IMG/VR virus record: IMGVR_UViG_3300030117_001665
Coordinates: 1 to 37,998 of that record
Source of the DNA: a virus
Length of the DNA stretch: 37,998 nt
Reading direction: 5' to 3' (one strand)
The notes beneath the pieces were generated by a model. That model saw only the letters and a list, made by a program, of their open reading frames with translations, was not told where the DNA came from and searched no databases. This document shows, in pieces, positions 480-37,990 of the stretch. The number at the start of each line of letters is the position of its first letter. The first letter of the stretch is position 1. The position numbers and the translations under genes were made by a program.

Positions 480-686
480 ATGTCAGAAGATATTAAAACC
501 AAACCACATGCTTTTGATCTAGTCAAAATATCAAATAGAATTGTAATGTGGGTAATGGGGCCAGATGAACTAGAACTAATAACAATTAATAAAAGAATTG
601 CTAGGTCTCTGATTAACACCGGAACAATGCCTACATGGTATGTTGATTCCGGAGATTTAATTTTTGACTTGAAAAATTGGAGATAA
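480..686 (+). CDS. Hypothetical early protein, 68 aa
   Basis: Starts one base after the stop of the preceding gene, with a GGGAG-type ribosome site inside that gene's end. The 68-residue product has no recognisable domain. It is rich in Ile/Leu/Asn with a short tryptophan-ending C terminus. It is followed by the hairpin at 698-743, so its transcript probably ends at, or is processed at, that structure. Function unknown. Confidence 0.6.
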   Translation: MSEDIKTKPHAFDLVKISNRIVMWVMGPDELELITINKRIARSLINTGTMPTWYVDSGDLIFDLKNWR

Positions 687-697
687 TTTTTTAGGGG

Positions 698-743
698 TTG
701 ATAAAACGGATAGCATAGGAGACTGTGCTATCTATTGTATCAA
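698..743 (+). promoter_or_regulatory. Long RNA hairpin A with GAGA tetraloop, upstream of Gp88-like gene
   Basis: Positions 698-718 pair with 723-743: a 21-position stem with only two mismatches (704/737 and 707/734) and a GAGA (GNRA) loop at 719-722. A sister hairpin at 1485-1532 has the same stem length, the same C-A mismatch at pair 10 and the same G-U wobbles at pairs 11 and 19. Pairs 5, 9, 14 and 16 differ by compensatory changes, so pairing is conserved while sequence is not. This argues for a functional RNA structure. A two-turn duplex between early genes resembles RNase III processing sites of T7-like phages. It is not followed by a T-run, so it is a poor intrinsic terminator. Confidence 0.75.
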
Positions 744-767
744 CAGTGAAAAGAAGGGAACTACACA

Positions 768-1475
768 ATGCCCACCAAGACACAAATTGCCATCGATAAT
801 GGCGTATCTCTATTCAATGCCCATAAAGTCAAAAGCGTTTTAGACGGCATGGGAAAGACAGAACGTGTGATTAAAAAATCTACTAATGTCAAATTAGGTA
901 AAAAAGTCACTAAGGGTATTTTTAAAGGTATGCCTATCTATACAGTGACATTAGAAGAACGTGCTACCTGTGCTAAAACATGCGTTCATTGGTCTACGTG
1001 CTACGGAAACAATATGCCATTTGCTACACGATACGAAGCTAATGATGCCCTAACGGACACTATGGAAATAGAACTAGAAGAACTAAACCGTAAACATAAA
1101 AATGGTTTCCTTGTCCGTTTACATATTCTAGGCGATTTCTACAGTGTGGACTATGTGGAACTGTGGAATAAATGGTTATCTCAATTTGATAATCTTTACG
1201 TCTACGGATATTCTGAGCGTAAATCCGGAACTCCTATAGGCGATGCTTTAAACATCCTTAGAACACGCTGGACTAATCGCTTCATGGTCCGTGTGTCCGG
1301 TGATTTCAGTCTAACCACTATGACGGCTTTATCATTTGACGATGATATGGCGGTTTCTCAAATTGAGAATAAGCAAGCGTTCCTATGTCCAGTACAAGAA
1401 GATAAAACGGATAGCTGTGCAACGTGTGGTTTATGCTGGACCGCTAAAAAGAATGTAGTTTTTAAGACACATTAA
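768..1475 (+). CDS. Cysteine-rich phage protein resembling the Gp88 family, 235 aa
   Basis: The protein has two cysteine clusters: Cys68, Cys72 and Cys78 near a ThrCysXxxxTyrGly segment, and Cys207, Cys217, Cys220 and Cys223 at the C terminus. Between them lies a conserved-looking core with LHILGDFYS and VYGYSER-like segments. From memory this layout resembles the phage Gp88 family, whose activity is not established to my knowledge. The clusters suggest zinc or an iron-sulfur cluster (inference). AAGAAGGGA provides the ribosome site before the ATG at 768. The gene stands alone between two related RNA hairpins (698-743 and 1485-1532), so its mRNA may be released by processing or regulated separately. 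Confident as a gene, moderate on family. Confidence 0.75.
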   Translation: MPTKTQIAIDNGVSLFNAHKVKSVLDGMGKTERVIKKSTNVKLGKKVTKGIFKGMPIYTVTLEERATCAKTCVHWSTCYGNNMPFATRYEANDALTDTMEIELEELNRKHKNGFLVRLHILGDFYSVDYVELWNKWLSQFDNLYVYGYSERKSGTPIGDALNILRTRWTNRFMVRVSGDFSLTTMTALSFDDDMAVSQIENKQAFLCPVQEDKTDSCATCGLCWTAKKNVVFKTH

Positions 1476-1484
1476 AAAAAGGGG

Positions 1485-1532
1485 TTGACATATCGGAAAC
1501 CATAGTTAAACCTGTGGTTTCTAATATGTTAA
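1485..1532 (+). promoter_or_regulatory. Long RNA hairpin B, sister of hairpin A, downstream of Gp88-like gene
   Basis: Positions 1485-1505 pair with 1512-1532 with a single mismatch (C1494/A1523) around a 6-nt loop. It shares the preceding AGGGGTTGA context, stem length and mismatch position with the hairpin at 698-743, with four compensatory pair changes. It is followed by a T-rich run (TTTTAATTT), so it might also end transcription of the Gp88-like gene. It also sits just upstream of the small gene at 1556. The embedded TTGACA at 1485-1490 has no acceptable -10 at the right distance. Confidence 0.75.
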
Positions 1533-1555
1533 TTTTAATTTGAGGAGGTGATAAT

Positions 1556-1720
1556 ATGAATATTAACAAAATAAGACATGATCTCAAAACTAGTGGGGAT
1601 AGTCATCTAGTTTCATTAGAGAACATTTTAACAAATGATCAGATTGTTAAACTGTTTAGAGCGTTTAATGATACTGACGGTACACCAGACGCTGTAATTG
1701 ATTTTCTGGAAAAGGGGTAA
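1556..1720 (+). CDS. Hypothetical small protein, 54 aa
   Basis: A short open frame with a strong ribosome site: GAGGAGG at 1542-1548, then ATG at 1556. It runs 54 codons to TAA at 1718-1720, and the next gene starts at 1724. The product is slightly acidic with a helix-rich middle (LENILTNDQIVKLFRAF). Family not recognised. Its frame, ribosome site and tight packing make it a real gene despite its size. Confidence 0.7.
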   Translation: MNINKIRHDLKTSGDSHLVSLENILTNDQIVKLFRAFNDTDGTPDAVIDFLEKG

Positions 1721-3006: not shown

Positions 3007-3056
3007 TTCTTAAGAGATTAACACTTAGTTTAACACTTTGGTTAGTCTCTTAAGAA
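3007..3056. repeat. Inverted repeat at the middle promoter start
   Basis: Arms 3007-3022 and 3041-3056 are inverted copies (TTCTTAAGAGATTAAC versus its complement with one G/T difference) separated by 18 nt. The outer arms contain CTTAAG. Because transcription probably starts inside the left arm, this is more likely a DNA-level protein-binding site than an RNA hairpin. Confidence 0.55.
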
Positions 3057-3064: not shown

Positions 3065-3083
3065 AAAGATACTTATGATTTAT

Positions 3084-3159
3084 CAGGTGGTGGCAGAAGT
3101 AGTTATGCACTGGACTGCAAATCCAGACTATGTGGGTGCAACTCCCACCCACCTGTCCA
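3084..3159 (+). tRNA. tRNA-Cys (anticodon GCA)
   Basis: A 76-nt cloverleaf: acceptor arm CAGGTGG/CCACCTG perfect, D stem GCA/TGC, anticodon stem CTGGA/TCCAG with loop CTGCAAA (anticodon GCA), T stem GTGGG/CCCAC, discriminator T and encoded CCA. U73 fits cysteine identity. The D loop lacks the usual GG pair, showing AG, and the T loop is TGCAACT rather than TTCGA-type, so positions 18, 55 and 57 are non-standard. It is the only tRNA seen. It sits first in the middle operon. Confidence 0.9.
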
Positions 3160-3185
3160 ATTTAAAAAGAAAGAGGAATTAAATT

Positions 3186-6867: not shown

Positions 6868-7282
6868 AGAAAGTAGAAAAAACCGTAATTTAAAAACTAG
6901 GAGGAGAGGCATTTGGAATAAAGAAAAATATTTAATGAAAAGGAACGGTATGACTTGTGACGTATGTAAAGAAAGTTTTCCTAGAGAACTTTTAGAGTTT
7001 CATCATCTAGTGGAGGAGGAAAAAAATTTTAGTATGCACGTCAGTAAATTTAGAGGTATAAAAATAAGACAGGAAGTTCTTGACGAGGCAGATAAATGTG
7101 CTATACTATGTAGTAACTGCCATAGACTTGAACACGTTGCATTAAAAAATGGTGAGAGTATAATCAATGACCCGTCAGCTTATCGTAGATATAGAAACCA
7201 CAGAGTTACCCGTTACGAAAGTCTGGATGATTGGCACGATGAACGAATCGGGAGAGGTACGCAACTTTCTTTTTCCATTTAA
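6854..7282 (+). CDS. HNH endonuclease overlapping the polymerase gene, 142 aa
   Basis: HNH/beta-beta-alpha-metal nuclease: structural zinc cysteines Cys35 and Cys38 pair with Cys86 and Cys89, with His50-His51 in the first strand and CSNCH (Asn88, His90) plus His94 in the finger. Probably a free-standing homing-type nuclease wedged between primase-helicase and polymerase. The coding sequence is visibly more AT-rich than its neighbours, consistent with later arrival. The catalytic region ends near residue 95. Residues 105-142 are read out of frame from the first 116 nt of the polymerase gene, so the C-terminal tail is probably dispensable. Confidence 0.85.
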   Translation: MKSSEESRKNRNLKTRRRGIWNKEKYLMKRNGMTCDVCKESFPRELLEFHHLVEEEKNFSMHVSKFRGIKIRQEVLDEADKCAILCSNCHRLEHVALKNGESIINDPSAYRRYRNHRVTRYESLDDWHDERIGRGTQLSFSI

Positions 7283-37925: not shown

Positions 37926-37990
37926 TTGTGACATTTTTACCACAGTGACACTTTTGCAACACTGTGGTAATTATGCAACACTGTGACATT
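37926..37990. repeat. CACTGTG / TGTGACATT repeat cluster
   Basis: TTACCACAGTG (37937-37947) is an 11-bp perfect inverted match of CACTGTGGTAA (37960-37970). TGCAACACTGTG occurs at 37955-37966 and 37974-37985, 19 bp apart. TGTGACATT occurs at 37927-37935 and 37982-37990. Iteron- or operator-like array in the gene-free right end. The same heptamer reappears at 24-30. An origin or early-promoter operator is possible. Confidence 0.55.

Follow-up and report, generated by a model that had tools for sequence, protein, structure and literature searches.

The early RNase III sites of phage T7 (R0.3-R1.3) lie between cistrons of the early operon, ahead of the next gene's start, and fold into two helices of ~9-11 bp, separated by a small internal loop. 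In T4-like phages, the promoter-early stem-loops (PeSLs; Arbiol 2010; Comeau 2014, as cited in PMC4503421) are promoter-terminator motifs, presented in that account as dispersed intergenic hairpins, many with sigma-70-like promoters, that bound shuffled early genes. The ESAS of cluster K mycobacteriophages are intergenic imperfect inverted repeats of ~46-50 bp upstream of translation starts, with -35 and -10 hexamers 17-18 bp apart within the repeat (PMC3203893, PMC11373665), for which the authors found little support for mRNA hairpins (PMC3203893). Cluster O mycobacteriophages carry dispersed 17-bp dyad repeats with apparent deletions between copies (PMC4351075).

The T7 sites, the PeSLs and the ESAS each match part of the features of the hairpin family described here. 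Compared to the T7 sites, the sequence is unrelated, the phages belong to other lineages, a C.A/UA loop recurs, some copies contain a promoter-like core, and RNase III cleavage would be assigned by analogy. Compared to the PeSLs as summarized in PMC4503421, U-tracts are mostly absent, unlike in a stem-loop terminator of the PeSL kind, promoter-less copies are common, and the genomes are not T4-like. Among these three systems the ESAS have the most similar layout (PMC11373665), but for the present family an mRNA hairpin is backed by covariation and a G.U bias; matches to the 13-bp SAS in the DNA analyzed here were at chance level, with none at the hairpins. The cluster O repeats are an invariant short palindrome with no covarying long stem, unlike this family (PMC4351075). 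Among the papers searched, in which the PeSLs were covered through later citation, none described a covarying sense-strand hairpin together with an optional promoter core and cassette exchange.

The two window hairpins and their relatives

The window, a virus record of 37,998 bases (IMG/VR IMGVR_UViG_3300030117_001665), encodes a DnaB-like primase/helicase, a family A DNA polymerase and ribonucleotide reductase, and the nearest cultured DNA polymerases are those of Pelagibacter phages HTVC103P/104P/115P (50-52% identity). Near its left end, two long hairpins bracket a gene of the GP88 family (Table 1).

Table 1. Positions of the hairpins and neighboring features in the window
Feature	Position	Strand	Description	Basis or remark
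Upstream gene	480..686	+	68 aa	Stop codon ends 10 nt ahead of left hairpin
Left hairpin	697..744	+	22-position stem, GAGA loop	Folding, pair listing, covariance-model match (64.8 bits)
Shine-Dalgarno-like AAGAAGGGA region	752..760	+	Ahead of GP88 start	Sequence reading
GP88-family gene	768..1475	+	235 aa, PF17338 / PF23872; cargo between hairpins	Profile match, predicted fold
Right hairpin	1484..1533	+	Loop UUAAAC	Folding, pair listing, covariance-model match (53.8 bits)
Shine-Dalgarno AGGAGG of next gene	1543..1548	+	Shortly past right hairpin	Sequence reading
Downstream gene	1556..1720	+	54 aa	Kept in close relative L197; absent beside hairpin in L198

A pair-by-pair listing placed the arms at 698-718/723-743 on the left and 1485-1505/1512-1532 on the right. 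Both hairpins were present as described in the first-pass annotation, with a C.A mismatch at pair 10 (707/734 and 1494/1523, respectively), G.U at pairs 11 and 19, differing loops, and compensatory changes of both partners at pairs 5 (U-A/C-G), 9 (A-U/U-A), 14 (U-A/A-U) and 16 (G-C/C-G) and nowhere else. The listing also identified features that had been overlooked, namely an A.G mismatch at pair 7 (704/737) and one extra basal pair (697-744) in the left hairpin, and G.U pairs that lengthen the right stem to 1482-1535. The folding energies were -26.5 kcal/mol (z -7.3) for the left and -28.1 kcal/mol (z -5.1) for the right hairpin, and none of 200 shuffles folded as well as either. These were the only family members inside the window, and at the Rfam gathering score neither matched a known family, the sole match in the window being a tRNA. 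The lead-in AGGGGTTGA is indeed common to both, at 693 and 1480, but as a motif it was rejected, occurring at chance level in the window once one mismatch was allowed; a scan with the lead-in pattern returned 22 loci, with hairpins confirmed only in L093 (a contig of L001). Separately, the 15-mer GATAAAACGGATAGC from the 5' arm of the left hairpin (700-714) is exactly repeated within the GP88 coding sequence at 1401-1415, and the repeat also occurs in L001/L093; GP88 mRNA at 1401-1415 could pair with the 3' arm of the left hairpin.

As a starting set, 80 viral loci with GP88 relatives were gathered, and in several of them a long hairpin flanks the gene on one side or on both; the cultured Roseobacter phage CRP-361 (OR420750; host FZCC0042) has such a hairpin immediately after its GP88 gene, in the gap at 1583-1656. 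A covariance-model search of the kind proposed in the first-pass annotation, with a model built from 12 hairpins, was run together with BLAST of the hairpins and recovered related copies in other phage loci, including copies between other early genes, on the coding strand and with up to 4 per contig. Altogether, the covariance model and unbiased DNA patterns identified ~50 family copies, always in the stretch that separates a stop codon from the Shine-Dalgarno sequence following it. The window hairpins are thus two copies of a widespread, dispersed and rapidly evolving family of gene-boundary hairpins.

In an alignment of 45 family members, 89.9% of cells were paired, two-sided changes occurred in 11 pairs, and the covariation score was 0.302 compared to 0.135 for shuffled alignments (0 of 500 reached the score) and at most 0.075 for slid controls. 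The lower helix covaries as well. With the mismatch positions and the stem end omitted, G.U cells outnumbered A.C cells by 51 to 4, and by 43 to 0 in the upper helix. Such an excess is what a helix of the sense strand, in RNA or in single-stranded DNA, would produce, and it rules out a double-stranded palindrome or operator as the sole explanation. In a scan that handled both strands identically, the sense strand was the more stable one in 54 versus 10 GP88-side gaps and in 121 versus 31 other gaps. Covariation, the G.U/A.C asymmetry and the sense-strand bias together bear out the earlier claim that pairing rather than sequence has been kept in a selected RNA structure: the pairing is under selection, and the structure kept is that of the sense strand.

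Promoter-like core, termination and proposed RNA processing

Part of the family contains a promoter-like core. Where the 5' arm holds a perfect TTGACA, a TA lies at exactly 17 nt in 26 of 28 copies, compared to 7 of 17 among the other copies (Fisher p 2.7e-4, an optimistic value since the copies are related); the layout is that of the cluster K ESAS (PMC11373665). In 17 copies TTGACA retains its C despite having an A as the partner of this base, as expected if a -35 box were selected. A second family (family B, L010-L014), inspected by eye, displayed the same split into two classes, with TTGACA-18-TA. All of this would suit a PeSL- or ESAS-like cassette in which an embedded sigma-70 promoter, with its -35 in the 5' arm and its -10 in the loop, is primary and the hairpin insulates it from upstream transcription or serves a repressor. 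We nevertheless consider such a cassette unlikely, given that approximately one-third of the family, along with the left window hairpin, lacks the -10 or the -35 but keeps the hairpin, that the GP88 hairpins of L006 are without TTGACA, and that covariation and the G.U bias indicate RNA. For the window itself a promoter was rejected: the left hairpin has TTGATA in its 5' arm and no -10-like TA at a spacing of 17, which places it in the promoter-less class, the right hairpin has TTGACA followed by TAAACC at a spacing of 16, and neither reaches the promoter consensus. Most TTGACA relatives do have the sigma-70-like core expected of a PeSL.

The hairpins might instead be weak intrinsic terminators, with the upper helix followed by UAUUGUAU, and one hairpin of L022 did score as terminator-like on the sense strand. 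This is a very improbable account of the family, as covariation extends to the lower helix, a U-tract follows only ~10% of GP88-side hairpins, and family B, L006 and CRP-361 are without one. No intrinsic terminator (a G+C-rich stem followed by a U-tract) was called at either window hairpin.

The anatomy of the hairpins resembles that of T7 R-type sites. Each is an imperfect sense-strand helix of ~21 bp in which a lower and an upper helix flank a small internal loop, with a conserved C.A and a UA on the 3' side, and a short loop closes the top. In GP88-side hairpins, the median lengths of the parts above and below the innermost interruption are 11 bp each, for a total of 22 (10th-90th percentile, 19-25), and these hairpins thus have the near-continuous helix of ~20 bp or more with an internal loop that characterizes an R-type RNase III site. 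They also occupy the same intercistronic position on the sense strand, in regions taken to be early from their gene content. Internal-loop shapes differ from family to family; the 2x2 internal loop seen most often in 135 sequence clusters was 5'-CU/5'-UA, in six clusters, and the C.A with UA loop recurs in other clusters, including those of the right window hairpin and of L224. When the early gaps of T7 were folded, they displayed the same succession of lower helix, internal loop and upper helix; the cut positions used for this comparison, which are not annotated in the record, we take to be those of the published T7 map.

Given the 11 + 11 bp anatomy, the scarcity of U-tracts and the T7-like folding, RNase III-type processing is, by analogy, the best reading of the hairpins. 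We place somewhat better than even confidence in the proposal that they serve as RNase III-type processing signals between cistrons and double as recombination joints for cassettes of early genes, GP88 being a favored cargo. The first-pass annotation had suggested RNase III-like excision of the GP88 mRNA; processing of this type is the mechanism best supported by anatomy and position, but excision of that one mRNA is too narrow, because the same hairpin family also separates other early genes. Under the processing proposal, the hairpins would act as RNA signals between cistrons of the early transcript, where host RNase III would cut the two-turn helix with its internal loop and release each early gene as its own mRNA, as at the T7 R sites. 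Most relatives that bear TTGACA also have a sigma-70-like -35/-10 pair made up by the 5' arm together with the loop, and there the element would add a promoter. Repeated similar hairpins would moreover supply homology for recombination between phages, and a unit of one gene and one hairpin that integrated into a hairpin would yield the hairpin-gene-hairpin arrangement seen around GP88.

Cassette exchange and the association with GP88

Comparison of related loci revealed breakpoints at the hairpin edges. Homology between the window and L197 starts at 696, beside the base at which pairing in the left hairpin begins, and homology with L198 stops at 1536, at the end of the right hairpin. The difference between L012 and L014 is exactly one small gene plus one hairpin, and in L022-like phages the order of the cassettes is permuted, with the genes to their left and right staying constant. 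Adjacency conservation was 0.19 at hairpin junctions versus 0.50 elsewhere, figures that are confounded with the hypervariable region and derive from non-independent sequences. A test for exchange within the hairpin, by which the 5' half would track the upstream gene and the 3' half the downstream one, did not reach significance (p 0.12 and 0.25). These results indicate that cassettes of genes bounded by hairpins are acquired, lost and rearranged from phage to phage, with breakpoints at the hairpin margins, and that the hairpins, like PeSLs, lie at the joints of shuffled gene cassettes.

The occurrence of the hairpin-gene-hairpin unit in differing contexts, with breakpoints at its edges, would also be expected of mobile-element ends, i.e., IS200/REP-like single-strand hairpins moved by GP88. 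We regard this as highly implausible, however, as the GP88 sequence has neither an HxH motif nor a transposase or nuclease match, several unrelated genes are separated by hairpins, and the hairpins are always oriented with the genes and beside a Shine-Dalgarno sequence.

The association with GP88 was also found from the hairpins alone. Two hairpin-only DNA patterns, constructed without use of GP88, matched 24 contigs in all, 23 of which have a GP88-family gene within about 2 kb; the remaining contig (L185) ends ~54 bases past its hairpin. Apparent cases of hairpins without GP88 (L187, L203-L206) were ruled out, as those contigs carry divergent GP88-family genes beside the hairpin. For an enrichment test, two further GP88 branches were gathered and gaps of 45-220 nt were scored. 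Strong hairpins were present in 56 of 149 GP88-side gaps (38%) compared to 119 of 788 gaps elsewhere in those loci (15%; p 1.9e-9), and, with window-like hairpins excluded, in 35 of 128 compared to 94 of 759 (p 3.6e-5), both p-values being inflated by shared ancestry. The enrichment spans three divergent GP88 branches. Hairpins are thus typical of these regions as a whole, and enriched but not exclusive at GP88. An element specific to GP88 was ruled out, other genes being separated by hairpins as well, and no such hairpin pair was seen at the GP88 loci L003, L008, L011 and L015. Similar two-part hairpins were observed at other gene gaps (~15% of gaps) in L322, L323, L253, L293 and further loci.

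Autoregulation by the gene product, the other explanation offered at first, is not supported as a general one, as some of the junctions with hairpins do not involve GP88, although hairpins are enriched beside GP88-family genes. A wider form of the idea is that the GP88 protein or its relatives recognize the hairpins, for autoregulation or for processing or modification of their own mRNA. GP88 is bracketed by hairpins of differing sequence in several lineages, and both the enrichment beside three branches and the 23 of 24 pattern-found contigs are consistent with recognition. We judge it improbable all the same, in view of the other genes separated by hairpins, the many GP88 genes without them, and a common lineage and locus as a possible source of the association. 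Moreover, no RNA-binding domain was recognized in GP88, and its weak fold matches point to radical-SAM barrels.

The window protein matched the GP88 profile (PF17338) at 28.9 bits against a gathering score of 24.4, and also matched PF23872. In an alignment of 50 GP88 relatives, Cys68, 72, 78, 207, 217, 220 and 223 were invariant and an H-x-x-G-D-F motif was conserved. The predicted structure was confident, with a mean pLDDT of 88. Foldseek returned no match at E below 0.001, no usable hit came from a profile search of solved structures, and the best VIA-align matches were radical-SAM enzymes, with Z up to 6.4 (4k37), too low to be trusted alone. A radical-SAM-like Fe-S protein is offered as a lead only. 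We would also judge improbable the suggestion that GP88-family proteins, as possible radical-SAM-like Fe-S enzymes, form one system with the hairpins, recognizing or modifying C.A/UA-loop hairpins at their own and neighboring early genes; if true, such a system would explain why hairpins of differing sequence lie beside three divergent GP88 branches. In Sphingomonas phage Lucius, Ruegeria phage 45A6 and Rhodobacter phage RcZahn (L106, L107 and L108), GP88 is the C-terminal domain of a longer protein, annotated as helix-turn-helix in RcZahn, and these sequences suggest a domain fusion.

The hairpin family probably marks both the cut sites of early mRNAs and past swaps of early genes between phages. 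If the processing-and-joint proposal is right, marine phages would possess a structure-conserved, sequence-free punctuation mark that separates early mRNAs and guides gene shuffling. It would account for the movement of GP88 and other small early genes from phage to phage without loss of their expression, and would provide a searchable model for annotating the early regions of uncultured phages. The repeated link to GP88 offers an initial way into a protein family that is widespread in phages and whose function is unknown.

Other repeats were observed in the window. A 21-nt inverted repeat at 37927-37980, near the right end, lies within a run of CACTGTG/ACCACAG repeats, and repeats resembling this run are found in L195 around 7023-7086. 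An unrelated long hairpin at 3007-3056, with 16-nt arms that are 94% complementary, is directly ahead of a tRNA-Cys gene. The segment carrying this gene (3070-3166) is missing from L197 and L198, with an overlap of ~8 bp at the joint, which suggests that it was gained or lost via short direct repeats.
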